A DNA stretch of 33,098 bases from Candidatus Saccharimonadota bacterium (GCA_003164595.1 PLTT01000016.1:1-33098); one strand, 5' to 3'. Shown: positions 9,639 to 27,485, numbered from the stretch's first letter. Numbers and translations are program-made. Notes: a model not told the origin generated them from the sequence alone.

Positions 9639-10664
9639 CTAATTTGGCGAAAGATAATATATAAGTTGACCGGCTGTGCCGTCATTGGTAATTGTATTAT
9701 CGGCCATATCACCGTTACCAGTAGTCTTATCTGTAGTTCCAGAATCACCATAAATAAAGATTGGTTTTGAACCGCCAACTGCAACTATCTCGACGTGTCC
9801 GCCATTGTAGTCGAAGAATGCCACATCACCCGCCTTGGGAGTGTAGTCATAGGCCGAGTGATAGGTAAATCCTTGGTTCTCAATATAAGGAGCATAATAT
9901 TCATCCCAACCATCTCGCTCACCATTTTCAAAAGGGTATCCGGCCTGCTTATAAACATAGCTGACAAAATCTGCACACCACTCCTCATAGCTATTACCGT
10001 CGGAATAAGTATTGAGCAGGGTATTGTGGCTGACAGTGCCTGATTGCCATAGAATCCATTGCTGTGCAGCAACACAGGCAATTTTATCTCCCTGAGAGCC
10101 TCTGCAGCCCAAAAAGGCCCCGCTAGTGGATTGGCTGCTATATGTTGCGGGCATCCAGGCTTCAAGTGGCTGTGTAAGGTGCGTGCAGCGACCGAGGATT
10201 AGCTGCTCGTTTGTTTGATCATTGGGTATCTCTAAACAGTCGGTACTGGCCGGATTTTCATAACCATCAATGGCAGCGACCCAAACCTGTCCCGGCTTAC
10301 CGCTGCACGGATTGGACACTACTTTGTCGTTGACAGTCGTCCCATTATTTAAAACTGATAAACAAGACTTCTTGTCGTGAACTAAGCTGCTACCGGTTGC
10401 TATCCAATTCTGGGCGTCTGTTCCATTGCACTGCCAGCTATCAACTACGGCATTCACGGCCGAACTGTCTTGATGGGCGTCCAGGCAATACCCGTCTATA
10501 CCAGATTTAATTTCGGGTATTGATGAGGAAATATTAAAAGTTGCAATCTTAAATGTTAAGAATGCGGCGACTATCACTGCCAGGTATATTATAAATTTCC
10601 TGAAACGGTGTTTATTTGGCTTCTTCGTTGGGGCGCTGTATCTTCTTTGGGTTGTTGAATTCAT
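9639..10664 (-). CDS. Secreted ricin-lectin/CHAP peptidoglycan hydrolase
   Basis: The 341-aa protein has a basic N-tail, one membrane or signal-anchor helix (about 23-40), a ricin-B-type beta-trefoil (about 52-172, with QNW and QVW motifs and paired cysteines) and a C-terminal CHAP amidase/endopeptidase domain. The CHAP catalytic Cys230 lies in EEWCADFVSYVYKQAGY and His290 in GGHVEIVAV. The trefoil should bind carbohydrate and the CHAP domain should cut peptide or amide bonds in peptidoglycan outside the cell. Whether the target is its own wall, a competitor or a host cell cannot be read from sequence. No AxA-type cleavage site is obvious, so it may stay anchored. It is divergent from the LCP gene. 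Confidence 0.87.
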   Translation of the reverse strand: MNSTTQRRYSAPTKKPNKHRFRKFIIYLAVIVAAFLTFKIATFNISSSIPEIKSGIDGYCLDAHQDSSAVNAVVDSWQCNGTDAQNWIATGSSLVHDKKSCLSVLNNGTTVNDKVVSNPCSGKPGQVWVAAIDGYENPASTDCLEIPNDQTNEQLILGRCTHLTQPLEAWMPATYSSQSTSGAFLGCRGSQGDKIACVAAQQWILWQSGTVSHNTLLNTYSDGNSYEEWCADFVSYVYKQAGYPFENGERDGWDEYYAPYIENQGFTYHSAYDYTPKAGDVAFFDYNGGHVEIVAVGGSKPIFIYGDSGTTDKTTGNGDMADNTITNDGTAGQLIYYLSPN

Positions 10665-11003: not shown

Positions 11004-11033
11004 ATGACTCAAATTAAGATAATTTATGGATAG
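11004..11033 (+). CDS. Nine-codon leader ORF overlapping the LCP start
   Basis: An ATG at 11004 preceded by GGAG (10993-10996, 7-nt spacer) opens a frame MTQIKIIYG whose TAG (11031-11033) overlaps the LCP start codon at 11026 by 8 nt. The Shine-Dalgarno site belongs to this small frame, not to the LCP start, so ribosomes ending here would be placed to restart on the LCP gene. Short size makes this tentative. Confidence 0.45.
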   Translation: MTQIKIIYG

Positions 11034-12624
11034 AAGTGGTCAGCCACGGCGTGCTAGGCAGCAGCAAAGCATGGATGGTTTTTCTGCGCCCCGAGTTCGC
11101 AGCAAGCCTGTTTTGCATCACCCAATTACGAGACCCCAGCTAGCTCCCGTAGCCCCAACCATTGCTCTTCCTGAAATGCCTGCCGCAGCCAAACTACCTA
11201 GGAATGCGGCCAGGGTAGATAGTAAAAAAAGAAAAATAAAAAGAAAATGGTCTCGTCGTAAAAAGGTATTAATTACCATATTAATTATTGTTGTGGCGCT
11301 ACTTGGCGTTGGTGGATACTACGGATCACGTATCATCGGTAATATCGATAAAGTTTTCCACGGCAATATATTTTCTGACACTAAGGCTCTTTTTAGTACA
11401 ACTACACTAAATGGTGAGAACCAGGGCAGGATTAATATACTACTGGCCGGTGATTCTGCCGATGATATAGGGCACAGCGGGGCAGACCTAACAGACTCTA
11501 TTCTCATTGCCAGCATAAACACCAAGAACCACACCGTCTTTTTGTTAAGTGTCCCAAGAGACCTATGGGTCTATGTCCCAGGCATGAACTCATACGAGAA
11601 AATTAACGCCGCCAACACCGTGACTGATTTCAGCCAAACTGGCTATCCAAGCGGTGGAATGGGCCAACTTCAGCAGATTATTGAAACTCAACTAGGTATC
11701 CCCATCGATTATTATGCACTTATGGATTATGGCGCATTTCGCGATAGCGTAAATGCAGTTGGTGGTGTGACGATTAATATTCAGAGTTCCGATCCAAGAG
11801 GCCTTTACGACTGTAGTATTGATTATAGTAATAATAAACCTCTCGTGGACTACACGAATGGCTTGCATACACTGGACGGCGAACAAGCCTTGGATTTGGC
11901 TCGAGCTAGAGGGGATTGTTATGATTCGTATGGTTTTGCAGACTCAGATTTTCAGCGCACTAAAGACCAGCGCGAAATGTTTATAGCCATTTCCGAAAAA
12001 GCTAAGACATTAGGTATCATCAGTAATCCTGCAAAAGTTAGTGATCTATTTAGTGCCCTTGGGAATAATGTAGAAACAAACCTGAGCCTCCCAGATTTAC
12101 TGGCGCTTATAGGACTAACTAAGGATATTAATCCTGCAACAGCACAGTCATATTCCTTTAGCTCAACTCTTACGGGTGGTTCCAGCCCAGTATTAACCGA
12201 TTATACAGATCCAAGCTCAGGTGAAGAAGCTCTCATACCAACTGCTGGTATAGGTAACTACTCAGCCTTGACACAATACTATCAACAGCTAGCTTCGAAT
12301 AACCCGGTCGTTAAAGAAGGCGCAAGTGTAGTTATTCTAAATGGCAGTAATGTAGTTGGATTAGCTGCAAAAGAGAAGACAGCGCTAGAAGCAAAGGGCT
12401 TTAATGTTGCGTCCGTTGCTGATGCATCAACAGAGTATCCGTCGACGATGATTGTTGATAATTCAAACGGTGCCGATCCTAACTCCCTTAAATTACTCAA
12501 GCAATTATTCCCGGGTACTACCGTAACAACTGACACTTCGCCAACCGAGGCCACCGAGGCTCAGGGCTATAGTGATACTTTCGTAGTTATTCTTGGTGAA
12601 AACTGGAATCCAACCACACAATAA
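11026..12624 (+). CDS. LytR-CpsA-Psr (LCP) family wall-polymer ligase
   Basis: The 532-aa protein has a long basic, Pro-rich cytoplasmic tail (1-80), one membrane helix (about 80-100), an extracellular LCP domain (about 133-345) and a C-terminal LytR_C domain (about 433-530, starting VVILNGSNVVG). The LCP core keeps its phosphate- and metal-binding residues: Asp154 and Asp157 in GADLTDSILI, Arg178-Asp179 in VPRDLWV, and a later block ARGDCYDSYGFADSDFQRTKDQ. LCP proteins transfer lipid-linked glycopolymers to peptidoglycan or cell-surface proteins. A later in-frame ATG at 11071 is possible, but overlap with the leader ORF favours 11026. A weak CTTATG/CATAAG hairpin after the stop has no T-run. 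Confidence 0.92.
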   Translation: MDRSGQPRRARQQQSMDGFSAPRVRSKPVLHHPITRPQLAPVAPTIALPEMPAAAKLPRNAARVDSKKRKIKRKWSRRKKVLITILIIVVALLGVGGYYGSRIIGNIDKVFHGNIFSDTKALFSTTTLNGENQGRINILLAGDSADDIGHSGADLTDSILIASINTKNHTVFLLSVPRDLWVYVPGMNSYEKINAANTVTDFSQTGYPSGGMGQLQQIIETQLGIPIDYYALMDYGAFRDSVNAVGGVTINIQSSDPRGLYDCSIDYSNNKPLVDYTNGLHTLDGEQALDLARARGDCYDSYGFADSDFQRTKDQREMFIAISEKAKTLGIISNPAKVSDLFSALGNNVETNLSLPDLLALIGLTKDINPATAQSYSFSSTLTGGSSPVLTDYTDPSSGEEALIPTAGIGNYSALTQYYQQLASNNPVVKEGASVVILNGSNVVGLAAKEKTALEAKGFNVASVADASTEYPSTMIVDNSNGADPNSLKLLKQLFPGTTVTTDTSPTEATEAQGYSDTFVVILGENWNPTTQ

Positions 12625-12778: not shown

Positions 12779-13723
12779 ATGGAAGAAAAACCCGATAATA
12801 ATCTAAAAAGTCCCACTATCGTATCTTTGAAAAAGGCTTTTAACAAAAGACCAGCTTTAGTCTATTCTGGCCTAGTCATTATTATTATAGTTGTTGTTAT
12901 CTTAGTGAGGCATAATAGTAAGACTGTCTTCACTATCGACGGGACAGCCTATAATCAATCATACGTAAACCCAATTGCTGTTTTTCCGACGGTTTTTCTA
13001 CACGGATCAAATAACACTGCATATAGATCTATTCTCAACATGATCGAATACAAGACCGTAGCCAACAATCTGCATATAACTACTACTGCTAGTCAATTGA
13101 ATACCCAGCAACAAGTACTTAACGGTGAATACGGAGCATTTACTAAGATACCAAGCTACAAAACATGGTCAAACCTCGTTGCGCAATACAAAGCAATACA
13201 GTATAAACTGAGCACCCAATACCAAAATAACGCGTATCAAGGATATAGTTTTATTTTTTGGTTTGGTAACACGATCGATGGAGGTCCGACATATACACCG
13301 CCAAATGCGGACAATACGACAATATATAACCAGGCTAAAACTTACGCTCTAGGCAGGGCTAATTACTATTATGGGCAGCTAAAGACTAATAAGATGACTC
13401 TAGCTAAGGCTTACGGCGCGGTCGTCTCAGACCCGAAATTGTTAGTCAACTCTATCAGCAACCCAAGCGTGAATTTCGGAACCTACATCTACTTACCCTG
13501 GACTACTCAGGTGTATTATCAAGATGTGATTAATTATATACAAGCTCAGAAAACAACAGGACTAAGTTCCGTAAAAACCGGTACGATCTATGCCGGTTCA
13601 CCGAATTACCAGAAAAAAGACGCATATTATTACTTTGTTAATATCAATAAAATTAACGTTTCACCAATAGACTTTAACCAGGCCCTTAAGTCACTCAAAG
13701 TTAGTTACCGAGGAGCAAATTAA
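12779..13723 (+). CDS. Membrane-anchored SurA-N-like protein, putative chaperone
   Basis: The 314-aa protein has a charged N-tail, one strong membrane helix (about 26-44, Ile/Val-rich) and an extracytoplasmic part beginning VFTIDGTAYNQSYVNPI. This is the strand-helix opening typical of SurA/PrsA-type N-domains, followed by helical Tyr/Asn/Gln-rich sequence. No parvulin active-site region is evident, so it would be a chaperone rather than a prolyl isomerase. Its stop codon overlaps the start of the 1107-aa surface protein (TAATG), so the two are translated together, and a dedicated export or folding role for that protein is the simplest reading. The family call is tentative; the membrane topology is clear. 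Confidence 0.6.
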   Translation: MEEKPDNNLKSPTIVSLKKAFNKRPALVYSGLVIIIIVVVILVRHNSKTVFTIDGTAYNQSYVNPIAVFPTVFLHGSNNTAYRSILNMIEYKTVANNLHITTTASQLNTQQQVLNGEYGAFTKIPSYKTWSNLVAQYKAIQYKLSTQYQNNAYQGYSFIFWFGNTIDGGPTYTPPNADNTTIYNQAKTYALGRANYYYGQLKTNKMTLAKAYGAVVSDPKLLVNSISNPSVNFGTYIYLPWTTQVYYQDVINYIQAQKTTGLSSVKTGTIYAGSPNYQKKDAYYYFVNINKINVSPIDFNQALKSLKVSYRGAN

Positions 13724-16700
13724 TGGCAGAAAGAAAACTTTTAACTTTCGGGACTCATAAATCAAATAACCACAAGGGCTTCCTGTTCGTATTATATTTT
13801 AGTTTCATATTAACAGCAGCATTGATAATGTTGAATAGCGGAGCAAACAGGGTATTTGCGGCATCCCCAGTAACTTGTGGTATTAATACTGGTAATAGCA
13901 CAGATTACGCAGCGGCTGTTATTGAACTACAGGTACAATCATCTGACTCTTCTGTCGCTCCGGTTACGGCACAGGGCGCTAGTGCTACGATAACCGACAA
14001 AGTCGAATACCCAAATGGCAGGAGTAATATCCTGAGTTATGACGTGACTACACAGAAAATTGTTTCAGGACCCCAAGATTCCGTCACTTTAAGCCAGCAT
14101 TCAGGTATAACATGCCAAAATCCTAATAATGGCAACACCTATGTGAACCCCGTAGTACTAGCCTATACAACTGGGGCTACTAGCAGTATTGGTGGCTATG
14201 CTAGCCCGGGGTCGTATGTGCTTGATTGTGATGAACTCGCGAGCGGTGGTGCTTTAGCTACGTTTAGCATAACTGGTAGCGGTACTCCAACTAACGCTAC
14301 TGCTGGAGGAACTTGGGATACGCAAACAATTCAGCCCGCAAACGGCGGCACTGCGTATACTATAGTCACATATAAGGAGAAGCAGGCTCTAGTGCCGTTG
14401 ACCGGTGAAGTTGATGAGAATTATGCTCATAATGGATTACCTGGCGCCGAGGTATGGTTGACTGACTCAACAACCCCCAAATATACCGGCCCATTATATA
14501 CTGTACAGACTGGTCCTACAGAGGGTATCTATTCTACCTCCATACTCACGGGTGATCATTTTCAAATTGATATGACTCATTTTACTAATCCTAGCGGTTA
14601 TTCTGGAGCATACACTGACCCTAATTTATCATCGACGGCTTCAAGGTATAACTGCAACTCTTCGGAATACCCAAATCAGGTGGCTGGATCAAGCCCGAGT
14701 AATTCGTCTTGCACGGACATACGCAGCGTTACCAACGACGCATACAATTTTATTTATAATTCTTCTTCGACATCTAGTTGTGGCGGCCTGTCATCGTCGG
14801 GTTCTGGTTCAACGTATACGGTGTCTGCTTCCTATACCACGGCTAATGGAGTCAGCTATAAGAGCGTAAGCTTCAACTGGGGCGATGGCACCACGATTTC
14901 TGGGGGAACGAATTCCAATGGTGTAGTAAGGTCAGCTCCACATACTTATAGCGGCTCCGGAACCTACGCAGTAATAGCCACGCTTAGCTTTAACAGTTCC
15001 TCAACTTCAACATGCCAGACTACTATTATCGTAGGTGGCGGGGGGAACCCTACCGCACCTATACTTGCATGTACTGCTGGAGGTGGTGCATATAACATAA
15101 CGCTTAATACCAATCCGACACCGACTGGGGGTTATATTGGCGCAGGCTATCCTTCTCCCACACTTTGGTTCACTTCAAGTGGTGGGTTTGACTCTGATGC
15201 CAATCACGGATTGAGCCTAGCCCCTTACTCGGATCAAACATCTCAACTTATTGTTGATGGAAATTCCAGCCTAGGCCTCCCGTCATCTGGCCCAACTGAT
15301 TTTACTGGGTCTAATTCGAATATAGGTGGCCTTACATACCCAATAAATAATTCCGCTGGCGTATACAATGTAAATTATGAGGCAAATATAGTATCTGTCA
15401 TATCTAACCCAGCCTATCCTAACGACCCAGTTATTACCCAACAGACACCAACTCCCCCAGTGGTCTATCAGACGGAAACGCAGAACCCCGTCCCAGTATT
15501 TACGACCACAGCTGACATAGGAAGTCCAACGAGCGCATACTACACGAAAGAAGTTGTCACCACTACGTACATCTATACCAACACAGTTACCGGGCCTAAC
15601 ACTTCGGAGGGGACAGTCACTGGTTCGAGTAGGCCTACTCTTGGATCTAATGAAACGTCGGCAGGTCCTATAGCTCTTGCTTCGTCTACTACTAGTTCGC
15701 AACCAATAACTTCATCCACCGTAGGCACAGACCCAACCATTCAGACAATCACCTATGAAAATTCAACTACAAATACATATACCGAGCCAACCACGATTAC
15801 TACGCCGGGTACTACTACTTCGGGTACTACTACCTATTCTTGTTCGCCTGGTTGGTCAGGACCCAGTGGAGGTAGGTGTTCTAGGGTGGAAAAGAACGGC
15901 ACGACGACTTATACTGGTGAGACTGCTACTACCTCACCATCAACTACCAGCCCCTCAACGACTACTCCTAGCTCGGAATCGTCTCAAACCGTAACTGATA
16001 ATTATCAATATATCGTAACCATCACTACAACCACCACCACAAACACCAACACCACTAACTGGATAACCTATGCGACCAATCCGACAGTTTCATGTCCTGC
16101 TGCTACGATCCAAATTGCCGATCAACCATACATGAAGGTTTACGGCGGTGATGTGGTAGCGGGCAGTGGTTTTGCATCAGGATCAGGCACTAGTTGTACT
16201 GAGCCAACATCTTCAAGTATCATTGGCTGGAATTGGCCTCAGCCACCCAAATATAGCGGCGCGGGTGATGAGTTTGCGGCATATGCCTTAGGAAATATTA
16301 ATGGTTTTGCTACTAATCAGGCTTCGGCTAACGGGGGAGTCACGGCCCTATCATTCGCCAATAATAACCCCAATAATAATAACCCGTCATCTGGACTTTT
16401 CGGTGGATACTTTGTCCCAGTAAATTGTGCTCCTGATTTCTTCGGTACCATGCCAACGAGCACTATCTCACCCGTACCATCAAGTCCAAACAATTTAACA
16501 ACCCAGTCTTACTACAGTGGAAGTGGTGTAACAATCAACGGTGGAAACGTTCAGGACAGTCAACATCCGACAATTTATGTAGCCGGAAATGCGTATATTA
16601 CTGGAAACATTAACTTAGGCACTAACCCTGGCGGAAATTGGAGTAGCATCAGTGCTATCCCGTCTTTTGAGCTTATAGTTAAGGGCAACATATATATTGA

Positions 16701-17046
16701 TCCTGGCGTAACTAATCTAGATGGCATCTATGTTGCTCAAGGCGGCACTATTTATGATTGCGCAACAGCCTCTGGCCCAGTTAGCATTAATGACTCTTCG
16801 TTCTATGACACCTGCAACAATAAACTAACAGTAAACGGGTCTTTCATTGGCACCAACGTAGATCTAATGAGGACTAACAATACGCTTTACCAGAGTAGTT
16901 CTGATAGCTCTAATGCCGGCGGTGGTTCATCTAGCAACGCTGCTGAAGTCTTTAATTATAATCCGGTAATTTGGCTTGGTCTAACTACCAATAATACAAA
17001 TTTGAATAACTACGATTCTGTCACCAGTCTTCCGCCCGTCTTATAG
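13723..17046 (+). CDS. Giant secreted PKD-containing surface protein of the pilus locus
   Basis: The 1107-aa protein has a basic start, a signal-type helix (about 20-45) and a likely AxA cleavage site before ASPVTCG. The mature part is rich in Ser, Thr, Asn and Gly with several Cys pairs. A PKD-like domain lies at about 348-435 (SFNWGDGTTISGG, then HTYSGSGTYAV). A Thr/Ser-rich linker spans about 620-775. The last ~170 residues form a Gly/Asn-rich region with VAGNAYITGNI and LIVKGNIYIDPGV, resembling beta-helical passages of pilus-associated proteins. AGGAG before the ATG supports the start. It sits directly upstream of pilM, so a pilus-tip adhesin or PilY1-like role is plausible, but no PilY1 propeller is recognised. 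Confidence 0.72.
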   Translation: MAERKLLTFGTHKSNNHKGFLFVLYFSFILTAALIMLNSGANRVFAASPVTCGINTGNSTDYAAAVIELQVQSSDSSVAPVTAQGASATITDKVEYPNGRSNILSYDVTTQKIVSGPQDSVTLSQHSGITCQNPNNGNTYVNPVVLAYTTGATSSIGGYASPGSYVLDCDELASGGALATFSITGSGTPTNATAGGTWDTQTIQPANGGTAYTIVTYKEKQALVPLTGEVDENYAHNGLPGAEVWLTDSTTPKYTGPLYTVQTGPTEGIYSTSILTGDHFQIDMTHFTNPSGYSGAYTDPNLSSTASRYNCNSSEYPNQVAGSSPSNSSCTDIRSVTNDAYNFIYNSSSTSSCGGLSSSGSGSTYTVSASYTTANGVSYKSVSFNWGDGTTISGGTNSNGVVRSAPHTYSGSGTYAVIATLSFNSSSTSTCQTTIIVGGGGNPTAPILACTAGGGAYNITLNTNPTPTGGYIGAGYPSPTLWFTSSGGFDSDANHGLSLAPYSDQTSQLIVDGNSSLGLPSSGPTDFTGSNSNIGGLTYPINNSAGVYNVNYEANIVSVISNPAYPNDPVITQQTPTPPVVYQTETQNPVPVFTTTADIGSPTSAYYTKEVVTTTYIYTNTVTGPNTSEGTVTGSSRPTLGSNETSAGPIALASSTTSSQPITSSTVGTDPTIQTITYENSTTNTYTEPTTITTPGTTTSGTTTYSCSPGWSGPSGGRCSRVEKNGTTTYTGETATTSPSTTSPSTTTPSSESSQTVTDNYQYIVTITTTTTTNTNTTNWITYATNPTVSCPAATIQIADQPYMKVYGGDVVAGSGFASGSGTSCTEPTSSSIIGWNWPQPPKYSGAGDEFAAYALGNINGFATNQASANGGVTALSFANNNPNNNNPSSGLFGGYFVPVNCAPDFFGTMPTSTISPVPSSPNNLTTQSYYSGSGVTINGGNVQDSQHPTIYVAGNAYITGNINLGTNPGGNWSSISAIPSFELIVKGNIYIDPGVTNLDGIYVAQGGTIYDCATASGPVSINDSSFYDTCNNKLTVNGSFIGTNVDLMRTNNTLYQSSSDSSNAGGGSSSNAAEVFNYNPVIWLGLTTNNTNLNNYDSVTSLPPVL

Positions 17047-17098: not shown

Positions 17099-18139
17099 AT
17101 GAGTATTTTGAGTGGGGTATCAGACTTTTTCGGACTCGATATCGACGATACGGCTATACGTATAGTCCAGTTGCACGGCTCTTCGAACCCCAAGACACTG
17201 GTTAAATACGCTTATCAACCAATAGATACGAGGTTAGTTATAAGTGATGCCCCAGCAGACCAAGAGAAGCTCTTAAAGGCCATTAGTGGTTTGTTAGCCC
17301 AAGCAAATATGTCAACAAATAATGTTGCTGTCGCCATATCATCTCAAAAGGTATTTACGACAGTCGTTGATATTGATAGACTACCCGCCAACGAACTGGC
17401 AAAATCGATTCGTTATCAGGCCGATTCGCTCATACCAACTCCCGTGGCTGAATCAAAAATTGACTGGGCGCTGCTCGGAGATTCACCAGTCGATAAGAGC
17501 AAATTGGAGATTCTTTTGTCTAGCGTTGCCAATAACTATGTTGAGCGCCAATTGGAGATGCTGGAATCGATAGGTCTTAATGTTATAGCTTTTGAACCGG
17601 ACAGCATGGCTGTCGCCCGAGCGCTTATTGCTCCCGATAGTAAAGAGGGGCAAATAATACTAGATATGGGGGCTATAGGTACCAATATAATTATCTATGC
17701 AAATGGTTCTCCGCATCTAACACGAAATATTACGACTGGCTCACAAGCAATATTCCGTGCAGCAACTGAGAATCTAAACGTCGACAATGATCAGGCCAAT
17801 CAGTACGTCATGAAATTCGGGCTTAGCGAGGATAAACTTGAGGGGCAAGTATATAAAGCCCTGATAAATATCGTAGATACATTATGTGCAGAAATTGAGA
17901 AATCCATCAAATTCTTTACTTCCAGGTACCCAAACATAAAACTTGAACGGATAATAGTCACAGGCTCAGCCGCCACATTACCAGAATTTCCGCTATACAT
18001 TGCTAATAGATTCGGCATAAATGTTGAAATAGGAAATAGTTGGCGCAATGTATCATATTCTCCATCCAGACAAAATGAATTATTAGCTCTATCGAACCTG
18101 TTTAGTACGGCCGTTGGCCTAGCAGAGAGGTTAGAATGA
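17099..18139 (+). CDS. pilM: Type IV pilus inner-membrane platform ATPase-like protein PilM
   Basis: The 346-aa protein is actin-like. It opens with FFGLDIDDTAIRIVQL (phosphate-1 loop), has DRLPANELAKSIRYQAD and IPTPVAESKIDWALLG typical of PilM, then ILDMGAIGTNIIIYANG (phosphate-2) and IIVTGSAATLPEF (adenosine loop). PilM is a cytoplasmic ring component that binds the N-terminal tail of PilN and links the platform to the motors. The matching PilN tail is present in the next gene, which overlaps by 4 nt (ATGA). Length and motif order match the family. Confidence 0.93.
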   Translation: MSILSGVSDFFGLDIDDTAIRIVQLHGSSNPKTLVKYAYQPIDTRLVISDAPADQEKLLKAISGLLAQANMSTNNVAVAISSQKVFTTVVDIDRLPANELAKSIRYQADSLIPTPVAESKIDWALLGDSPVDKSKLEILLSSVANNYVERQLEMLESIGLNVIAFEPDSMAVARALIAPDSKEGQIILDMGAIGTNIIIYANGSPHLTRNITTGSQAIFRAATENLNVDNDQANQYVMKFGLSEDKLEGQVYKALINIVDTLCAEIEKSIKFFTSRYPNIKLERIIVTGSAATLPEFPLYIANRFGINVEIGNSWRNVSYSPSRQNELLALSNLFSTAVGLAERLE

Positions 18140-18816
18140 TTCAGTTTAATCTATTACCAGACGTAAAGCTACAATATGTAAAAGCTAAGCGAGCTCAAGA
18201 CATCGTAATATTGGTTTCAACAGTACTAATTGCTGTTTTCTTAGCAATCTTTGTGATCCTCTATGTGTATGTTTCGATTATCCAAAAGAACCATATCAAG
18301 AACCTGTCCAACCAGATAACCTCCAGCACGCAACAAATAACCAGTAATTCAAATCTTAACAAAATCTTAACAATTCAGAATCAGCTGGAATCATTGCCGT
18401 CTTTATACAACGGGCGACCGGCGACTACTCAACTACTACCGTTCGTAAATCAGCTAACTCCCTCCAAGGCAACGATATCGACGTTAGCGGTAAACTTCGT
18501 ACAAGATAGCGGATCGATCGCAGGCAATGCTGATAGTCTAGCTACAGTTAATACTTTCGTGGATACTCTTAAATTTACGACATTCACGGCGGGAAGTATT
18601 AAAGGGACCAATGCCTTTAGTGGTGTAGTTCTAACAAGTTTCGCCCAAACAACAACACCGGTTGGGTTTAGTTACTCAATAGCATTCTCTTATAATCCAG
18701 AGATATTTAATGAATCAGCGCAAGCCACACTTTCTGTGCCAAATCAAATAACTACACGGTCAATAACGCAGCAACCAACAGATCTATTCTTAGGTACATC
18801 GTCGGGGAATAAATAA
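18136..18816 (+). CDS. pilN: Type IV pilus platform protein PilN
   Basis: The 226-aa bitopic protein starts MIQFNLLPDVKLQYVKAKR, the short cytoplasmic (I)NLLP tail by which PilN docks to PilM. One membrane helix (about 25-48) and an extracytoplasmic coiled-coil plus ferredoxin-like domain follow. The start overlaps the pilM stop, so the pair is translationally coupled. The C-terminus has a Thr/Gln-rich extension of about 40 residues. Family assignment is strong from tail, topology and position. Confidence 0.88.
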   Translation: MIQFNLLPDVKLQYVKAKRAQDIVILVSTVLIAVFLAIFVILYVYVSIIQKNHIKNLSNQITSSTQQITSNSNLNKILTIQNQLESLPSLYNGRPATTQLLPFVNQLTPSKATISTLAVNFVQDSGSIAGNADSLATVNTFVDTLKFTTFTAGSIKGTNAFSGVVLTSFAQTTTPVGFSYSIAFSYNPEIFNESAQATLSVPNQITTRSITQQPTDLFLGTSSGNK

Positions 18817-18817
18817 T

Positions 18818-19507
18818 ATGGCAAAGAAATTACCAATTACTAAACGGAATTTAATAGATAAAGCCGATAGAAGGATGCTTACATTCGCCGGGATCGCTGC
18901 GTTTGTAGTTATTTTCTCAATAATATCCAGTAAGTCATTATTGTCACAACTAACTTATCAAAACCGATTGGCTAGTGCCAACCAGACTGCTCTTGACCAG
19001 CTAATAACTGATACTTCTTCTGAGCATTCACTAGTTAGTTCATACCAGTTATTTACGAGCTCGCCAACAAACATTATTGATGGAACCTCAACTGCTCAGG
19101 GACTGAATGATGGTAATAATGGGCAAATAATTCTTGATGCCCTGCCTAGTAAATATGATTTTCCGGCCATGATTACAAGTGTTGACAATCTGTTGTCAAC
19201 TTCTGGCGTAGAGGTTACCGGCATCAGCGGCCTTGATGAACAAATTGCCCAACAAGCTGACCAGACTAGCTCAAGCCCATCGCCGGTGCCGATGACATTT
19301 CAATTTACCGTAAGTGGTTCATACCAGAATATCCAGAGTCTGTTTGATACGTTCCAGCGATCTATTCGACCTTTTCAGTTTCAAAATGTATCATTTCAAG
19401 CAAGCACGAGCTCAACCAATCAGACAAATCTTACGCTAACTGCCACAGCTCAAACTTTTTATCAGCCTGAAAAAATATTTAATATCACTACTGAGGTTGT
19501 CCAATGA
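18818..19507 (+). CDS. pilO: Type IV pilus platform protein PilO-like
   Basis: The 229-aa protein has a basic cytoplasmic tail, one membrane helix (about 22-42), a coiled-coil stretch (about 45-75) and a globular domain including MTFQFTVSGSYQNIQSLFDTFQRSIRPFQFQNVSF, the strand-helix-strand pattern of PilO. PilO pairs with PilN outside the membrane to connect pilin and motor. It starts 1 nt after the pilN stop and overlaps the next gene by 4 nt. Confidence 0.82.
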   Translation: MAKKLPITKRNLIDKADRRMLTFAGIAAFVVIFSIISSKSLLSQLTYQNRLASANQTALDQLITDTSSEHSLVSSYQLFTSSPTNIIDGTSTAQGLNDGNNGQIILDALPSKYDFPAMITSVDNLLSTSGVEVTGISGLDEQIAQQADQTSSSPSPVPMTFQFTVSGSYQNIQSLFDTFQRSIRPFQFQNVSFQASTSSTNQTNLTLTATAQTFYQPEKIFNITTEVVQ

Positions 19508-19755
19508 AACAGAAAAATATAGTCACACTAGTTATTATCGTGTTTTTTGCCGGCATTGTTTCTATGCTGGCTTCAAAATATATTTTTGCTACATCCTCAG
19601 ACAGACAACAAACTGCAGAAGTTATACCGGCTATCACGTCAGACTTTCCAACTCCAAGTTCAACATACTTTAATTCTCAGTCAGTCGACCCAACTCAGTT
19701 AATTCAAATTGGGACATCAACTAATAGTACCCCTTTCAGCACCCCCACGCAGTAG
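19504..19755 (+). CDS. Small bitopic protein in the PilP position
   Basis: The 83-aa protein has a short basic start, one membrane helix (about 7-29) and a low-complexity Ser/Thr/Pro/Gln tail outside. It overlaps the pilO-like stop by 4 nt (ATGA) and precedes pilB. In classical loci this slot holds the PilP lipoprotein, which contacts the PilQ secretin. Here there is no lipobox, no HR domain and no secretin, so calling it PilP would be positional only. It may be a reduced platform part. Confidence 0.7.
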   Translation: MKQKNIVTLVIIVFFAGIVSMLASKYIFATSSDRQQTAEVIPAITSDFPTPSSTYFNSQSVDPTQLIQIGTSTNSTPFSTPTQ

Positions 19756-19775: not shown

Positions 19776-21587
19776 ATGAGCGTATTATCTGCAACTTTAC
19801 AAAATCAGATCAGTGACAATCTTCTTCAAGATGGTTTATTATCTAAAACTTCACTTGATCAGATACAGATCGACTCCAAGAACAAACACATTCCATTACT
19901 GAGCCTTTTGGTTAGTGAAGGCCACATATCTAGTGAAGACCTAACTAAATATACTGCCAGGGCTAACAAGCTGCCTTACGTTAACTTGAGTTCCGCAGTA
20001 ATCGATCCAACCATACTTGAACTCTTACCTAAAGATATAGCAGAACACTACATGGCAATCCCGCTCGGTGAAATCGATGAGCATCTCGTAGTCGCCATGC
20101 TAGATGCTGATAACATTCAAGCCATAGACTTCCTGTCAAAAAGAATCGGGCGGTCACTTAGAGTTTATGCCGCGAGCGAAGAGGGCATCAGGCAGGTCAT
20201 GAAACAATATAAGGTTAAACTTGATGCATCTGTTACTAATGAAGTAAATGAGGAGCTGGGTGAATTAGATCAACCACCCAATGGCAATAATGCGAACGCC
20301 CCACAGACAGTTAAGCCCGCTAGCAAGAATATTAAAACTATTGTTCAAGATTCGCCAATTAGCAAAGCCCTCTCGACGATATTAGAGTACGCTGCCACTA
20401 ATAGGGCCAGTGACGTTCATATCGAGCCTTATGCTGACTCTTTGGTTATTCGCTGCAGGATAGACGGTATTCTAAAAGAAATCATGAAATTACCTAAAAG
20501 TCTCGAGCCTCCATTAATATCTAGAATAAAAATATTGTCCAACTTGAAAATTGATGAGCACCGCATCCCACAGGACGGAGAGTTCACTATAATAGTTGCC
20601 AAGCGCGAAATTGATCTAAGAATCGCTATAGCGCCTGTTATTTGGGGTGAACAAGTCGTAATTCGGTTGTTAGATAAAACTGGAACTAGCTTAAAGCTTG
20701 AGGATATGGGCTATAGTGGCAGGTCTCTGAGAGTTATCAGACACGGTATCGCGCAGACAAATGGAATGGTACTGACTAGCGGGCCTACGGGTTCGGGTAA
20801 ATCTACAACTTTATATGCTTTGCTCCAAGAACTTAAAAACGAGACGGTGAATATTGTTACGCTGGAAGACCCAGTAGAATACAAAATGGATGGCATTAAT
20901 CAAATACAGGTCAATCCTGATGTAGGTCTTACTTTTGCGACTGGTTTACGATCGATCTTACGCCAAGATCCTAACATAATCATGGTAGGGGAAATTCGTG
21001 ATCATGAGACCGCTGAACTAGCAGTCCAAGCGGCTTTGACCGGTCACTTGGTATTCAGTACTCTCCACACTAATTCTGCGGCAGGTATCTTGCCTCGTCT
21101 TCTAGACATGAATATAGAACCATTCCTAATTGCCAGTACGGTAAGAACTGTTATCGGCCAACGACTAGTCAGAACACTTGGAGAAAAAACACAAACCTAC
21201 CAATCGAGTCCGGTTGAAACGGCTGCCATTAATGCTACGATTGGCCACTTGCTGCCGCCCACTGAAGCCGATATACAAAGAGTAAGTGAAGATCTTGGCT
21301 TTCCAAACTTGCCAGTTCGTAATGAAAATGCTTATACTTTAACTAAGGGTGCAGGAAAAATTAATGCATCTCAGGGGTACAAAGGGCGGATGGGTATCTA
21401 TGAAGCCTTTGAGGTAAGCCCGAAAATCCAGGACTTAATCTTAAAACGGGCAACTAGCGCTCAAATACAGGCTGTGGCCCAGGAAGAAGGTATGGTTTTA
21501 ATGCGTGAAGATGGGTATCTGAAAGCATTGAGTGGCCGTACAACCATAGATGAAATTAACAGAGTGGCTTCTGCGGATGCCGAATAG
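19776..21587 (+). CDS. pilB: Type IV pilus assembly ATPase PilB
   Basis: The 603-aa protein has a GspE/PilB N-domain (about 1-150, with ISSEDLTKYTARANKLPYVNL), a Gly/Asn linker, then the secretion-ATPase core. SDVHIEPY begins the N2 domain. Walker A GPTGSGKST is at 336-344, the Asp box is VTLEDPVEYKMDG, Walker B has Glu406 in MVGEIRDHETAE, and the His box is TGHLVFSTLHTN. It powers pilus extension. The tetra-cysteine zinc motif usual before GYKGRMGIYE is absent: this stretch (about 470-540) has no cysteine and carries an insertion. It is separate from pilT, giving both motors. Confidence 0.95.
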   Translation: MSVLSATLQNQISDNLLQDGLLSKTSLDQIQIDSKNKHIPLLSLLVSEGHISSEDLTKYTARANKLPYVNLSSAVIDPTILELLPKDIAEHYMAIPLGEIDEHLVVAMLDADNIQAIDFLSKRIGRSLRVYAASEEGIRQVMKQYKVKLDASVTNEVNEELGELDQPPNGNNANAPQTVKPASKNIKTIVQDSPISKALSTILEYAATNRASDVHIEPYADSLVIRCRIDGILKEIMKLPKSLEPPLISRIKILSNLKIDEHRIPQDGEFTIIVAKREIDLRIAIAPVIWGEQVVIRLLDKTGTSLKLEDMGYSGRSLRVIRHGIAQTNGMVLTSGPTGSGKSTTLYALLQELKNETVNIVTLEDPVEYKMDGINQIQVNPDVGLTFATGLRSILRQDPNIIMVGEIRDHETAELAVQAALTGHLVFSTLHTNSAAGILPRLLDMNIEPFLIASTVRTVIGQRLVRTLGEKTQTYQSSPVETAAINATIGHLLPPTEADIQRVSEDLGFPNLPVRNENAYTLTKGAGKINASQGYKGRMGIYEAFEVSPKIQDLILKRATSAQIQAVAQEEGMVLMREDGYLKALSGRTTIDEINRVASADAE

Positions 21588-21601: not shown

Positions 21602-22669
21602 ATGCAAGAACAACCTAAGATTGAAGTTCTACTAGAAGAAGTTCTAAGACGAAAAGCTTCCGATTTACATATTCAAGTTGGCATGCCACCAATGCTTCGT
21701 GTTGATGGAGCTTTACTACCAGTGGCGGGTTCACCGGCGATCACCGAAGAAGCGATTGAAGCTCTTATTTTCTCTGTACTTGATGAGGAACAAAAACAAA
21801 TTCTCATAAAAGATAAAGAGTTTGATTTTAGTTTTGCTTTCGGTGACTTGGGTCGTTTTCGTGCTAATGTTTTCCATGAACGGGGTAATTTAGCAATTGC
21901 ACTGCGTTTAATACCAAACGAAATATTGACTATCGAGCAGCTTGGATTACCTTCAGTTGTTAATAATTTTGCAAATTATCCCCGAGGTTTAGTATTGGTC
22001 ACTGGCCCAACTGGCTCAGGTAAATCAACTACATTGGCGGCAATGATCCATAAAATAAATCAGGAGCAAGCAAGACACATTATTACCGTTGAAGACCCGA
22101 TCGAATATACCCATAAATCATTAAAGTCTATAGTCGTTCAAAGAGAAGTACACTATGACACTTTCTCTTTCAGCGGAGCACTTCGTTCGGCGCTTAGAGA
22201 AGACCCTGACGTTGTCCTGATTGGTGAGATGAGGGATCTTGAAACGATAGCAAGTGCTATAACTATCGCCGAGACAGGTCACCTGGTTTTTGCAACACTC
22301 CATACAAATTCAGCTAGCCAATCCGTAGATAGAATGATAGATGTATTCCCGCCACATCAGCAACAACAGGTTCGTTCGGAGTTATCCAATATATTAATGG
22401 CTATATGTTCTCAGACTTTGATTCCGGTTATTGGTGGAGGCAGAATTGCCGCAGCCGAAATACTCATCGTTACACCAGCGGTACGCAATATAATTCGGGA
22501 AGGGAAAAGCCACCAGCTTGAGGCGGTGATCCAAACTGGCGGGGAATTTGGCATGCAATCCATGGACAATACTCTAGTCGGCTTGATAAAAGCCGGTACA
22601 ATAACTTATGACGAGGCGCGTACTCATGCTGTTGATTTAAATGAACTAGACAGGCTAATGAGAGCTTAG
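21602..22669 (+). CDS. pilT: Type IV pilus retraction ATPase PilT
   Basis: The 355-aa hexameric motor ATPase opens with LRRKASDLHIQVGMPPMLRVDG. It has Walker A GPTGSGKST (135-143), an Asp box ITVEDPIEYTH, Walker B Glu209 in LIGEMRDLETI, and a His box TGHLVFATLHTN. The PilT-specific AIRNLIRE motif appears as AVRNIIREGK, and GMQTMD as GMQSMDNTL, which separates it from PilB. It drives pilus depolymerisation and thus twitching and DNA uptake where those occur. AAGGTGG upstream serves as Shine-Dalgarno. It is 14 nt from pilB and 2 nt from pilC. Confidence 0.96.
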   Translation: MQEQPKIEVLLEEVLRRKASDLHIQVGMPPMLRVDGALLPVAGSPAITEEAIEALIFSVLDEEQKQILIKDKEFDFSFAFGDLGRFRANVFHERGNLAIALRLIPNEILTIEQLGLPSVVNNFANYPRGLVLVTGPTGSGKSTTLAAMIHKINQEQARHIITVEDPIEYTHKSLKSIVVQREVHYDTFSFSGALRSALREDPDVVLIGEMRDLETIASAITIAETGHLVFATLHTNSASQSVDRMIDVFPPHQQQQVRSELSNILMAICSQTLIPVIGGGRIAAAEILIVTPAVRNIIREGKSHQLEAVIQTGGEFGMQSMDNTLVGLIKAGTITYDEARTHAVDLNELDRLMRA

Positions 22670-22671: not shown

Positions 22672-23898
22672 ATGTTTTTATATCAATATACTGCGCGTAA
22701 TGCAACTAGTGGCGAGAGTGTAAAATCTACTGTTGAAGCTGAAAATGAGAATGAGGCGGCCAAGTTATTGCAAAAACAGGGCTTGGTTCCTATTGACATT
22801 AAACTAGACCGGGGCTCAAATTTGGGGGTTTTAGGGAAATACTTCAATCGGGTACGGACCAAAGATCGGATACTTTTTTCGCGACAATTAAGTACGCTAA
22901 TTAACGCTGGATTACCGCTCATACAGTCAATGCGCAACGTTGCCGATCAGACTACTAGCAAGTCACTAAAAACAGTCATTGAAGGGTTGATTACAAGCGT
23001 TGAAGGCGGTTCATCACTCTCCGCGGCTGCGGCAAAATATCCCGAGGTATTCAATAAACTGTTTATAAGTTTGGTGGCCGCTGGTGAAGTGTCAGGCACG
23101 CTAGATAAGGCATTGGAGCGATTGGCTGATCAACAAGAGAAGGACGCGGATATAATTAGTAAGATTCGCGGGGCAATGATGTACCCAATTATTGTCCTGA
23201 TAGTCATGTTTGGCGTAATTGCATTTATGGTAATTAAGTTATTGCCAGCTGTCCAAAATCTTTATAGTACTTTCCCAGGCGCGCAGTTACCGCTTATAAC
23301 TAGGATATTACTCAGCATGGTGCATGCCTTTACGCACTACTGGTGGCTAGTTACTATAATTTTGGCAGTCTTGATATTCCTGTTTCTGAGATGGCGGAAA
23401 AGCTCAGGTGGTAGAAGCGTGATAGACAGAGTTAAAATGCGCGCAGGGCCGATTGGGAAGCTGTTTATGAAAATATATATGTCTAGATTCTCGCGTACTG
23501 CTTGTACATTAGTAGGTAGCGGAGTTCCACTACTCCAAGTGCTTGATATTACCGGCGACGCGGTGTCCAATGTTCACATTCAGAATTCTTTGAAAAAGGC
23601 TGCTGATAAGATTAAAGGCGGTGCTGCTTTATCTGATGTATTAAGCAAAGATCCTAATTTTCTCCCACTGGTGCCAAGTATGATCCGTATAGGAGAACAA
23701 TCAGGTACGCTGGAACAGATGCTAGATAAAGTGGCAACTTATTACGAAAAGGAAGTAGACCAAGAGGTTAACAATATTAACTCCTTAATTGAACCAATAT
23801 TGATGGTTATATTAGGAGTTGCCGCGATTCTTATTGTTGTTGCAGTTTTACTCCCCATTTATGGTCTGGCAAACCAGTCAAGCCTATCTGGTGGTTAG
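22672..23898 (+). CDS. pilC: Type IV pilus polytopic core protein PilC
   Basis: The 408-aa membrane protein begins MFLYQYTARNATSGE, the usual opening of PilC/GspF, and has two T2SF domains (about 68-190 and 270-392). Three hydrophobic segments (about 168-192, 220-238, 372-398) match the family topology. The repeated motif GxPLLQ/GLPLIQ at domain starts is present in both halves. PilC turns in response to PilB and PilT and inserts or removes pilins. The length is normal. Confidence 0.95.
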   Translation: MFLYQYTARNATSGESVKSTVEAENENEAAKLLQKQGLVPIDIKLDRGSNLGVLGKYFNRVRTKDRILFSRQLSTLINAGLPLIQSMRNVADQTTSKSLKTVIEGLITSVEGGSSLSAAAAKYPEVFNKLFISLVAAGEVSGTLDKALERLADQQEKDADIISKIRGAMMYPIIVLIVMFGVIAFMVIKLLPAVQNLYSTFPGAQLPLITRILLSMVHAFTHYWWLVTIILAVLIFLFLRWRKSSGGRSVIDRVKMRAGPIGKLFMKIYMSRFSRTACTLVGSGVPLLQVLDITGDAVSNVHIQNSLKKAADKIKGGAALSDVLSKDPNFLPLVPSMIRIGEQSGTLEQMLDKVATYYEKEVDQEVNNINSLIEPILMVILGVAAILIVVAVLLPIYGLANQSSLSGG

Positions 23899-23984: not shown

Positions 23985-24524
23985 ATGAAATCTAAGCAAA
24001 TTAATAAATCTCAAGGCTTCACAATAATTGAAACCTTGATAGTCCTTGCTATAGCAGCAACTATTTTCCTAGTTGTTTTTCTGGCAGTCTCGGCACTAAA
24101 TCGGAGCAGTCGCAACACGCAGCGTAAAGACGATGCAGCTGCAGTTATTGCAGCATTTAGTGATTATGCATCAAATAATAACGGGGCCTTACCAGGTAAA
24201 TTAGCATTTGTGGCTCCTAACCTGGATCTTTGCGCAGCCATAGACTCAAGCTGTACTGCAACCACGAATACCGATATTGTAGCCACCGCTAAACTTGGTT
24301 ATTACAGCGGTACGGGGACAACCGCTGGTACGGCAGGTGATGTCAATCTAATCAGTGCAGGATCAGGTGCAACCGCACCAGCAACTACTACAGATAGTCT
24401 TAATATATATGTTGGCGCAACCTGCAATGGTAATGCTCTTACGGCAGGAAGTACACGTTCTTTAGCGGCTTTGTATGGCACTGAGCTATCAAGTGGTTTT
24501 TCTTGGCAGTGTGAAGCGTCCTAG
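23985..24524 (+). CDS. pilA: Major type IV pilin (PilA-like)
   Basis: The 179-aa prepilin has a short basic leader ending in Gly, then FTIIETLIVLAIAATIFLV: class III cleavage between Gly15 and Phe16, with Glu5 of the mature protein kept. The N-terminal helix continues to about 55, where LPG marks the start of the globular domain. That domain is Ala/Thr/Gly-rich and has four cysteines (LDLCAAIDSSC, ATCNG, SWQC), enough for two disulfides. It alone in the locus has a separate promoter, a good Shine-Dalgarno (AAAGGGG) and a strong terminator, which is why I call it the major subunit. Confidence 0.88.
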   Translation: MKSKQINKSQGFTIIETLIVLAIAATIFLVVFLAVSALNRSSRNTQRKDDAAAVIAAFSDYASNNNGALPGKLAFVAPNLDLCAAIDSSCTATTNTDIVATAKLGYYSGTGTTAGTAGDVNLISAGSGATAPATTTDSLNIYVGATCNGNALTAGSTRSLAALYGTELSSGFSWQCEAS

Positions 24525-24615: not shown

Positions 24616-25395
24616 ATGATAATAATTATGTTTATGTTTGGTATGCTATTCGGCAGTAGTGTCTATGCTTTTGTATTACGTTACCACGAACACAAAAGTT
24701 GGTTGAAGGGCCGCTCGGAATGCGATTATTGCCACCACGTACTTCAACCATTAGATTTAATCCCTATCTTTAGTTGGTTGGCTCTAGGGGGCAAGTGTAG
24801 ATACTGTAGTAAACGTCTTAGTTGGCAATACCCACTGGTCGAACTTGTCGCTGCCATCCTTTTTGCTCTATCCTATATTTTTTGGCCTTTATCGTTTAAC
24901 AGTCTGGGTGTGTTTCAGTTCATATGTTGGCTAATTCTTATCACGGGTTTTATGATCTTATCTATATATGATTTGAAATGGTATACACTACCTGATAAGA
25001 TAGTTTTTCCCTTAGTTAGTCTGTCGTTTCTCCAATTAGTAGTTGTCAGTACAGGGTCGGGGAGTGTTAAGTATTTTCTCGGAGGGATTATTGGCGCCGC
25101 TCTTATATCCGGAATATTCTATATGTTATTTCAGCTATCTGGGGGCAAGTGGATTGGCGGAGGCGATGTTAAGCTAGGTATTTGTCTTGGTATGATAGTT
25201 GGCGGACCAGTTAATTCCGTTCTCTTAATATTCATCGCTTCCCTGATCGGAACTATTTTAGCCATTCCTTTTGCCCTCAAGAATAAAACTATCAAAGCCC
25301 ATATTCCATTCGGTCCATTGCTGATGGTGGCTACAGTAATAGTCTTCTTCTTCGGAAGCGATTTAATATCTTGGTATACCCATTTATTAACATAA
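24616..25395 (+). CDS. pilD: Prepilin peptidase / N-methyltransferase PilD
   Basis: The 259-aa polytopic enzyme cleaves the leader of all prepilins here and, in bifunctional forms, methylates the new N-terminus. The cytoplasmic loop has the four zinc cysteines Cys36, Cys39, Cys61 and Cys64 (CDYC and CRYC), with SWLALGGKCRYC characteristic of bifunctional enzymes. The two catalytic aspartates of the aspartyl protease are Asp119 (SIYDLKWYTLPD) and Asp184 (GGGDVKLG). About seven to eight membrane helices are visible. It is placed between the major pilin and the minor pilins. Confidence 0.95.
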   Translation: MIIIMFMFGMLFGSSVYAFVLRYHEHKSWLKGRSECDYCHHVLQPLDLIPIFSWLALGGKCRYCSKRLSWQYPLVELVAAILFALSYIFWPLSFNSLGVFQFICWLILITGFMILSIYDLKWYTLPDKIVFPLVSLSFLQLVVVSTGSGSVKYFLGGIIGAALISGIFYMLFQLSGGKWIGGGDVKLGICLGMIVGGPVNSVLLIFIASLIGTILAIPFALKNKTIKAHIPFGPLLMVATVIVFFFGSDLISWYTHLLT

Positions 25396-25428: not shown

Positions 25429-26304
25429 ATGAATGGTGGATTTAACACCTCCGGTTTCACAATAATCGAGACTTTGATAGTTCTAGGTGTAACGGCGGCT
25501 TTATTGTTTAGTGTAATGCTTCTGATCGGTGGCAAAACATCTCAAGCACAGTTCACGTCAGCCATTAATGGCGTTAAGACAAACTTGCAACAAATAATTA
25601 ACTTGGCTTCAGATGGATCATATCCCAACGAAGGTAAATTTCAGTGCAGTTTGTCTAGTAATACTATCACTATAAATTCCGCCACCTCTAACCAGCAAGG
25701 TGCTAATTACGGATGTACGTTCCTTGGAAGTCTAATCCGTTTTGGTAGTTTTGCTCAGCCAACTGCTTTGAACCAACAATATGAGGTATACACGATAGTG
25801 GGACAGCAATGTATCTCTGATACAGCTTTTTCAAGTTGTGAAGTCCCGACTTCTTGGACTACTACTGATCCATATATTTTGCCCGCCTCAACTAAAACCA
25901 CATCAACTCAGAGCATTTTAAGTGGGCTTAGTTTAGTTTCAACCACTCTAATTGACAGCAACAGCCATTCGCTAGGAACGTCTACTATTGGCTTTTCTCC
26001 CAGCATCGCCTTCTTGGTAAATCCAGCCCAATTAGCATCGGCAACAACAACATCATCGACCGCTACCACGTTAAGCCCCGGTGCTCTACAGCTTAGTCTA
26101 TTCACTTATACCAGCGCTTGTGACCCAGCTTCAGAACAAGGATCTCCGCTCATGTCTGCTAACTGTTCGATTACGCCAATAGATGAGGCTGACCTTTGTT
26201 TCGCTAGTGCTACAACTGACCAGTCTGGCCTTATTACAATAGGTGGTGGCGGGGCACAGGACACGGTAAGCTTGAAAATATTTGGGGGGAATAACTGTGC
26301 TTAG
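25429..26304 (+). CDS. Minor type IV pilin 1
   Basis: The 291-aa prepilin has a leader of 9 residues ending in Gly and a mature start FTIIETLIVLGVTAALLFSVML with Glu5. Eleven residues across the cleavage site (GFTIIETLIVL) are identical to the major pilin. A long globular domain rich in Ser/Thr and six or more Cys follows. No FimU or PilE family feature can be pinned down. It is the first gene of a cluster with overlapping starts, as in initiating minor pilin sets. Confidence 0.85.
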   Translation: MNGGFNTSGFTIIETLIVLGVTAALLFSVMLLIGGKTSQAQFTSAINGVKTNLQQIINLASDGSYPNEGKFQCSLSSNTITINSATSNQQGANYGCTFLGSLIRFGSFAQPTALNQQYEVYTIVGQQCISDTAFSSCEVPTSWTTTDPYILPASTKTTSTQSILSGLSLVSTTLIDSNSHSLGTSTIGFSPSIAFLVNPAQLASATTTSSTATTLSPGALQLSLFTYTSACDPASEQGSPLMSANCSITPIDEADLCFASATTDQSGLITIGGGGAQDTVSLKIFGGNNCA

Positions 26305-26791
26305 ATACCTAAAATCGCTAAAAGATGGGGGTGACACGATTGTGGAAGTTTTATTTGCCGTAGTGGTCATAGGTATAGTTCTCACAGGGGCTTATGCAGT
26401 AGTAACCCACAGTCTCCTCGACGAACAAGACGCACAGGAACACAGCTATGCGCTTGGGTTAGCTCAGAGTCAAGTGGAAGAACTAAGAGCCTATATATTG
26501 TCTAACTCACCAGCCACTCTACCTTTCAATAATCAGAGCGGATGCATGTATTCTCCATATAGCCCAACTATCTCCTCTTTAAGCGTAGAGTTGAACGCTG
26601 GGGGTACGCCGTCGACTGATTGTGTCGTCTCGGGTAGTTCCAGTTCTGGCCCTAGCTATATTCTCAGTATAGCGCTGAAACCTGGTAGTAATCCAAATAG
26701 TAATCCGGTCTATCAAGTGAGTGCCCAGTGGCCTAGTCTTATATCTGGCGTTACAACTGACAGAATAATGATTCCTTATGAAGTTAACTAA
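26297..26791 (+). CDS. Minor type IV pilin 2 (PilV-like)
   Basis: Starting at the GTG at 26297 gives a 164-aa protein with GGGGGGA as Shine-Dalgarno 6 nt upstream and an 8-nt overlap with the previous gene; a TTG at 26282 would lie inside that Shine-Dalgarno. The leader ends GG and the mature start reads DTIVEVLFAVVVIGIVLTG: Glu5 is kept, but position 1 is Asp rather than Phe or Met. The helix then runs into LAQSQVEELRAYI, a PilV/GspI-like pattern. It has one cysteine pair. Confidence 0.78.
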   Translation: MLRYLKSLKDGGDTIVEVLFAVVVIGIVLTGAYAVVTHSLLDEQDAQEHSYALGLAQSQVEELRAYILSNSPATLPFNNQSGCMYSPYSPTISSLSVELNAGGTPSTDCVVSGSSSSGPSYILSIALKPGSNPNSNPVYQVSAQWPSLISGVTTDRIMIPYEVN

Positions 26792-27485
26792 AATGATAGA
26801 TAAATACACTTACCCCAAAACTCCATCCGACGATAAAGGTTTCACGATACTTGAATTACTCATCGCAACGGCAATATCCTCTGGGGCCATCCTCTTGCTT
26901 ATGTTTGGGTTTTTATCTATGTCAGTGACCTACACTAAAGGGCTGACTGTCGCTGAGACTCAGAACACAGCGCGTGATGTTCTCAATACAGTATCCCAAT
27001 CAATTGAATTTGCTGATCCCGCCACAATTAATCCTGCGTATATAAACACGCCCTCAGCGACTTCAGCCTCAGGTTGGTTCTGCGCTAACAATAGTATCTT
27101 CGTATATACTCTCGGTGTTAAAGTTACGAGTACGACCCACGCTTTAGTAGAAAACTCAATACTAGGGGACAGTGGTTGTCCGAATTCTGGCATAACAACA
27201 GCTACGGATTACATAAATAGTAATACTACTGCCCAGGAACTTTTAGGTCCAAATATGCGGCTAACAGCATTTAACGTCAGGGCTGGGGCAGATAACACAT
27301 ACACGATCAATATTAAAGTTGCTTATGGCGAAGACGCCGTTCTCCAAGGTTCCACTATATATGATGAAAATCCACTTTATTATGATATTGGTTCAAATCA
27401 AGTCAAATGTAATGGACAAATCGGTCAAGATTTTTGCGCAACATCAGCCCTTCAAACAGTAGTGGAGTCGCGCCTTGCTAACTAA
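26778..27485 (+). CDS. Minor type IV pilin 3 (PilW/GspJ-like)
   Basis: The 235-aa prepilin has a leader of 21 residues ending DDKG and mature FTILELLIATAISSGAILLLMFGFL with Glu5. A helix follows with ETQNTARDVLNTVSQSIEFA, resembling PilW/GspJ. The first ATG overlaps the previous gene by 14 nt; an in-frame ATG at 26793 right after that stop is equally possible. Neither has a Shine-Dalgarno, so coupling is likely. Confidence 0.82.
   Translation: MKLTKMIDKYTYPKTPSDDKGFTILELLIATAISSGAILLLMFGFLSMSVTYTKGLTVAETQNTARDVLNTVSQSIEFADPATINPAYINTPSATSASGWFCANNSIFVYTLGVKVTSTTHALVENSILGDSGCPNSGITTATDYINSNTTAQELLGPNMRLTAFNVRAGADNTYTINIKVAYGEDAVLQGSTIYDENPLYYDIGSNQVKCNGQIGQDFCATSALQTVVESRLAN

Follow-up and report, generated by a model that had tools for sequence, protein, structure and literature searches.

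Pili are leading suspects in the question of how host bacteria are recognised by Saccharibacteria, which are tiny parasites, and by other Patescibacteria, and a 33,098-nucleotide stretch of Candidatus Saccharimonadota DNA (GCA_003164595.1 PLTT01000016.1:1-33098, contig 11 of the 868-kb genome G000; hereafter the window) raises it in a specific form: what do the two coupled genes at the head of its type IV pilus operon do? The first open reading frame (ORF; 12779-13723, + strand, as are all features of the gene pair and of the pilus operon given below) codes for a 314-aa membrane protein, here called the partner. It overlaps by 1 nt a second ORF (13723-17046) coding for a 1107-aa protein rich in Thr, Ser, Gly and Asn, here called the giant. 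Stop and start share the motif TAATG (13721-13725), a GGAG lies a short way 5' of the giant start codon, and the giant ends 52 bp before the start of pilM, with which a complete type IV pilus operon begins. These ORF coordinates confirmed the shared stop/start just before pilM described in the original prediction, a note made from the sequence alone. We consider it fairly probable that the giant is a pilus-linked adhesin, resembling PilY1 in role and not in family, and that the partner is its matched membrane chaperone.

The giant was used as query against 60 relatives and matched 41, nearly always through its last ~330 aa; the partner, used in the same way, matched three, itself included. The C-terminal domain of the giant (C-domain; aa 780-1107, positions 16060-17043, ending in LPPVL) was delimited by conservation in relatives, and searches with it identified Candidatus Saccharibacteria genomes as the closest named relatives. 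Of the order's 295 genomes, 263 contained a match to the C-domain profile (228 of the 248 of high quality; 126 of 137 genera) and 294 a match to PilM_2; G000 itself contains one strong PilM match and one C-domain copy. Co-occurrence of the pair with pilM had been set beforehand as a check, and pilM was indeed directly downstream of the giant in 35 of 39 fetched loci, one of the exceptions reaching the contig end. When 74 genomes were compared by match position, pilM was downstream and co-oriented in 63, mostly at a distance of 78-223 nt. The same gene order was observed in named Saccharibacteria genomes, which were scanned with a closer seven-row C-domain alignment, the 33-row version being too diverse. 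Since it recurs across the order, the arrangement of the pair is not due to chance. In a phylum sample, 108 of 332 genomes contained C-domain matches (members of the order being counted in), and outside the class matches to the solenoid core were weaker. A small check of other classes revealed a ~620-aa exported C-domain protein directly before pilM in L213 and L214, and a C-domain protein just before pilN/pilO-like genes in L216. In G387, a C-domain match lay in an open frame of 25,343 aa that 72 kb of masked N had created artificially, and this frame was discarded.

Two kinds of protein were found in the slot upstream of the giant. The gap between the upstream ORF and the giant was ≤10 nt in 30 of 36 homologous pairs, and exactly one membrane helix was present in 32 of the 36 upstream ORFs. 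In most genomes this ORF codes for a TPR-type protein, mostly of 150-240 aa (the commonest single TPR model was matched by 16 of 27 TPR-type members at E 0.01), and the profile of the SurA-like partner matched 17 of the 295 order genomes, about 11 of them well. TPR and PrsA/SurA-like partners are two unrelated kinds, each read here as matching a head type of the giant (see below), and because most genomes carry a TPR protein in the slot, a SurA-N chaperone cannot be taken as the rule. The proposal of a folding partner plus adhesin foreign to textbook pilus loci was therefore upheld as far as a conserved pilus-locus pair with the look of a modular adhesin is concerned, and had to be qualified in that its SurA-like partner is the minority type. 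In L038, L053 and L066, partner and giant occur as a joint duplication. As a separate observation, the upstream slot of L214 (8798-9262) is occupied by a cupredoxin-like 154-aa protein, and L217 (5513-8151), from another class, codes for a giant-like protein with a Hint (intein-like) domain and a single-transmembrane partner overlapping it by 4 nt.

In pairwise comparisons, pilM had a mean identity of 62%, the C-domain of 34%, the N-terminal part of the giant of 14% (10% when shuffled) and the partner of 14.5%. The N-terminal parts, 187-896 aa long, were nearly unalignable; those of SurA-partnered giants nevertheless have in common an N-proximal head domain of ~170 aa, identified by sequence comparison in giants with a SurA-like partner only (13870-14382 in the window). 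A head model built from three giants found three more, all SurA-partnered (Fisher p 0.0015 without the seeds). All-versus-all BLAST comparisons, which need no such model, gave the same picture: for each of the 8 SurA-partnered giants with an N-proximal hit the best one was again SurA-partnered, whereas in the C-domain 8 of their 9 best matches were TPR- or other-partnered. When partner labels were permuted across the whole set of N-part matches, p was 0.03, and it was restriction to the N-proximal part that gave a clear partner-head signal. The mirror test for a TPR-type head outside its seeds was not significant (0/9 versus 8/32, p 0.16). When mapped on a pilM tree built from 46 loci, the SurA-like label requires 8 changes, at least 4 of them forced by well-supported branches, and so shows no more clustering than shuffled labels do. 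Because the SurA-like type is scattered on this tree and its giants have C-domains resembling those of TPR-partnered giants, partner and head behave like an exchangeable cassette set on a constant pilus-linked base: the two move jointly, and the C-domain and pilus operon stay in place.

The alternatives considered here and below overlap parts of the favoured reading, so that their probabilities are not meant to sum to one. The most probable of them is that joint swapping reflects DNA linkage only, recombination carrying the neighbouring gene along without functional matching: the giant begins where the partner gene ends, so any upstream exchange moves both. We regard this as possible, if doubtful, given that no mixed pair was encountered: none of 38 TPR-partnered giants had the SurA-type head, nor did any genome that lacks a SurA-like partner. 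This absence of mixed pairs argues for functional matching between partner and head but falls short of proof.

The partner has a basic N-terminus, exactly one hydrophobic helix, placed by hydropathy at aa 25-43 (12851-12907), and a PrsA/SurA-like exported part. A structure model built from 3 sequences (predicted local distance difference test, pLDDT, 66.5) and a fold search place a SurA/PrsA N-type domain at aa 49-146 (12923-13216; pLDDT mostly >90). It is followed in the model by a strand (153-161), three helices (180-202, 208-217 and 248-256) and two strands (266-271 and 279-291), which is the strand-helix-helix-helix-strand-strand order of parvulins. The five best PDB fold matches were four Lactococcus PrsA foldase chains and one peptidyl-prolyl isomerase (PPIase), the PrsA matches spanning the full length of the partner at modest E-values (5e-3 to 3e-2), and one of 11 partner homologues (L063) matched Rotamase at E 0.003. 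The region aa 153-291 (13235-13651) is thus probably a degenerate parvulin-like domain, as read from a low-confidence model, the fold search and this homologue, and the model suggests that the partner is a PrsA-like protein. Sequence searches were less informative: neither Pfam and NCBIfam nor PDB sequence searches with the partner and giant families gave a significant match, SurA-N was undetected in the window partner and only sub-threshold in 3 of the 11 homologues, and when the partner and the SurA/PPIase encoded in its own genome were compared profile to profile, a 33-column N-domain match (probability 8%) was all that emerged. A SurA-N-like membrane protein without an isomerase region had been predicted. 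The single membrane helix and, by model and fold search, the N-domain were recovered, though the window protein has no Pfam SurA-N match; the supposed lack of an isomerase region is probably wrong, in view of the parvulin-like order, the full-length PrsA alignment and the Rotamase match. The partner is likely inactive as an isomerase, because no catalytic histidine was apparent by eye in the strand that bears it in parvulins. An ordinary membrane protein with SurA_N and Rotamase domains is encoded elsewhere in the window (30828-31994) and is present in 39 of 40 relatives; the partner of the pair is therefore an additional, specialised one.

The partner crosses the membrane once, its TPR or PrsA-like domain is of a protein-binding kind and its slot near pilM is fixed; it could instead be a structural part of the pilus machine acting in alignment or docking, like TPR pilotins or PilP, with the giant docking on it. 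Such a part should follow the tree of the machine, yet the partner types are dispersed over the pilM tree and go with the head of the giant, and mean partner identity is only 14.5% against 62% for pilM; we hold this role to be unlikely.

The giant contains 15.2% Thr and 13.4% Ser. Its N-terminus (aa 1-46, 13723-13860) is signal-peptide-like by sequence and hydropathy, with ...RVFA/AS in the relevant stretch (aa 19-46). One PKD-like domain was located at aa ~358-432 (14794-15018), where the isolated segment, carrying the motif WGDGT...HTYSGSGTY, scored 22.1 bits with PKD_4 (E 1.6e-4) against a curated cut-off of 27; the whole 1107-aa protein gave no Pfam family at E up to 0.1, PKD included. Description of the giant as an exported PKD/Thr-rich protein therefore held for its size, its N-terminus and its Thr content, the PKD domain being single and below cut-off. 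A second PKD-like domain, 46% identical to it, is encoded elsewhere in the genome (G000:C6:15178-15456). The C-domain was modelled from 22 sequences (pLDDT 63.5, with a well-modelled core), and the core (16423-16899) adopts a beta-solenoid in the model. Both this model and that of the partner drew their sequences solely from the window and related loci. The top fold match of the C-domain was ComZ, the tip pilin of Thermus thermophilus (PDB 6qvi; probability 0.95, E 0.19), followed by ice-binding solenoids, which are also the nearest fold of the ComZ solenoid according to its authors (PMC6561018). The Pfam domain DUF7305 was matched below its curated cut-off by 8 of 33 C-domain members (best 3.5e-4), the window member giving no match, and by L217 with 23.2 bits against a cut-off of 27. 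No pilin N-terminus (N_methyl) was matched in the giant. Cysteines are conserved at C-domain segment positions 46, 123, 234 and 252, which suggests disulfides, and in L057, L058, L059, L061 and L063 some 100-180 aa are inserted just before the final AEVF...LPPVL motif.

ComZ has been shown to bind DNA, its location at the tip has been argued and a role as tip DNA receptor proposed (PMC6561018). By analogy, the giant might be a pilus-tip receptor capturing DNA for uptake, a role compatible with natural competence and with the need of these bacteria for outside nucleotides as well as with the fold match. The likeness is nevertheless weak and confined to the solenoid core, and the long hypervariable N-terminal part fits recognition of a partner better than sequence-independent DNA binding, which makes a receptor of this kind quite improbable. 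Little more can be said for a stand-alone cell-wall or S-layer protein that has its own promoter and merely neighbours the pilus operon, an equally improbable reading to which a pair far from pilM in one genus (g90, below) and a weak promoter-like site 5' of pilM lend something, but against which stand a pilM adjacency kept across many genera and families of the order and, among the few loci checked in other classes, in L213 and L214, and a C-domain resembling that of a pilus-tip pilin.

According to the favoured reading of a pilus-linked adhesin with a matched chaperone, the giant would be exported by Sec and act as a pilus-tip or pilus-associated adhesin. The C-terminal beta-solenoid domain would tie it to minor pilins or to the PilMNO machinery, and the variable N-terminal part would contact the outside, plausibly a host bacterium. 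The partner would remain membrane-bound and expose its C-terminal domain on the outside, where it may receive, fold or hold the emerging N-terminal head until loading on the pilus. A tip-adhesin layout is proposed because a fixed, pilM-adjacent C-domain resembling a tip solenoid is combined with a variable exported head, and for the partner the best reading is a dedicated factor for folding or escort, because it is membrane-anchored, is PrsA-like or TPR, and tracks head type. Tip location, adhesion, chaperone action and the host as target are all four what we infer, and host binding by the giant is a reasonable guess. More tentatively, with less than even confidence, we propose that Patescibacteria possess a tip-adhesin family with a fixed docking C-domain and exchangeable heads, each head type having its own membrane-anchored chaperone (TPR or PrsA-like), in which swapping a two-gene cassette before pilM would change host specificity.

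Several points weigh against the adhesin-chaperone reading. The fold matches are weak, none having an E-value below 0.001, and the models have pLDDT values of 63-67. Six of 295 genomes yielded the head domain, and in each it follows a SurA-like partner directly, but this order-wide search was modelled on the six known heads and shows absence elsewhere, not independent recovery. Linkage alone could explain the joint exchange of partner and head, which are adjacent on the DNA. ComZ binds DNA, so that the giant may also have a role in DNA uptake. Finally, in genus g90 of family f35 the pair is located away from pilM, so that the site at pilM is not strictly required; some pair copies of f35 still adjoin pilin-like genes. 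Frequent occurrence of the pair without pilus genes would have spoken against the original prediction, and apart from g90 this was mostly not what was found. In L179-L188 (f35, mostly g90), the C-domain giants end in APRY-like motifs, not LPPVL, and adjoin ruvC/ruvA or pilin clusters, the upstream gene mostly coding for a ~170-aa single-transmembrane protein.

Among known systems, the pair is comparable to several. PilY1, the type IVa tip adhesin of Pseudomonas and Myxococcus, is likewise a large Sec-exported protein encoded with pilus genes, has a variable N-part and a conserved C-part, and is proposed to be located at the tip with minor pilins; the giant shares pilus encoding and, as far as its signal-peptide-like N-terminus indicates, Sec export. 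The C-part of PilY1 is a beta-propeller (PF05567), a family that was absent from the Pfam results for the giant at E up to 0.1, and the C-part of the giant models as a solenoid. To our knowledge, PilY1 systems have no matched membrane partner. ComZ shares with the C-domain a pilus-tip beta-solenoid, which in ComZ is inserted in a pilin N-domain and here ends a Sec-exported non-pilin giant. The partner resembles PrsA/SurA foldases in its full-length best fold match and, as modelled, in an exported chaperone-type N-domain and a putative parvulin-like topology, and it differs from them in having no recognisable active isomerase site and in being gene-paired with one likely client. A chaperone-usher pilus was considered and rejected, neither an usher nor an Ig-like chaperone being seen in the locus.

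Within Saccharibacteria, PilX2 of Nanosynbacter lyticus TM7x, a minor pilin with an RCC1 beta-propeller, has been proposed as a pilus adhesin (ISME J 2025, PMC12206443); both it and the giant are thus proposed Saccharibacterium pilus adhesins, PilX2 being encoded in another locus. In the same study locus one comprises TM7x_00415-00475. Since TM7x_00415 is listed among pilM/pilC/pilT genes (PMC10768705), pilM appears to be where the published locus begins, which would leave the pair outside the map. The searched text of a survey of families across the candidate phyla radiation names pili components without such a protein, and no paper on the pair was found in openly readable text, figures and supplements apart. 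The giants constitute a near-universal, fast-varying family, predicted to be exported and tied to the order's main pilus locus, and the partner-head match opens a direct genetic test of the role of the pair in attachment and of the dependence of head on partner.

The operon 3' of the giant starts with pilM (17099-18139; PilM_2, 2e-38), a pilN-like gene (18136-18816; by position and a weak PilN match), pilO (18818-19507; PilO, 2.6e-7) and an 83-aa ORF (19504-19755) kept in the operon of relatives. These are followed by pilB (19776-21587) and pilT (21602-22669), both assigned by sequence and conserved order, pilC (22672-23898; by sequence), a pilin gene (23985-24524; Pfam-type N_methyl match) and the prepilin peptidase gene pilD (24616-25395; domain match). 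Two minor pilin genes (26282-26791 and 26778-27485; N_methyl, 0.0018 and 0.0012) and one for a PilX-like minor pilin (27516-28682; PilX_N, 9.6e-5; no LPPVL end in its sequence) complete the series. Promoter and terminator scans gave no clear excess over shuffles. Directly upstream of the partner, a LytR-CpsA-Psr protein is encoded (11026-12624), the same neighbour being found beside the SurA-like gene in L129. Also near the pair, on the opposite strand (9639-10664, -), lies a gene for a protein with a Ricin-B-type lectin and a CHAP peptidase, possibly an enzyme that binds and cuts the host cell wall.

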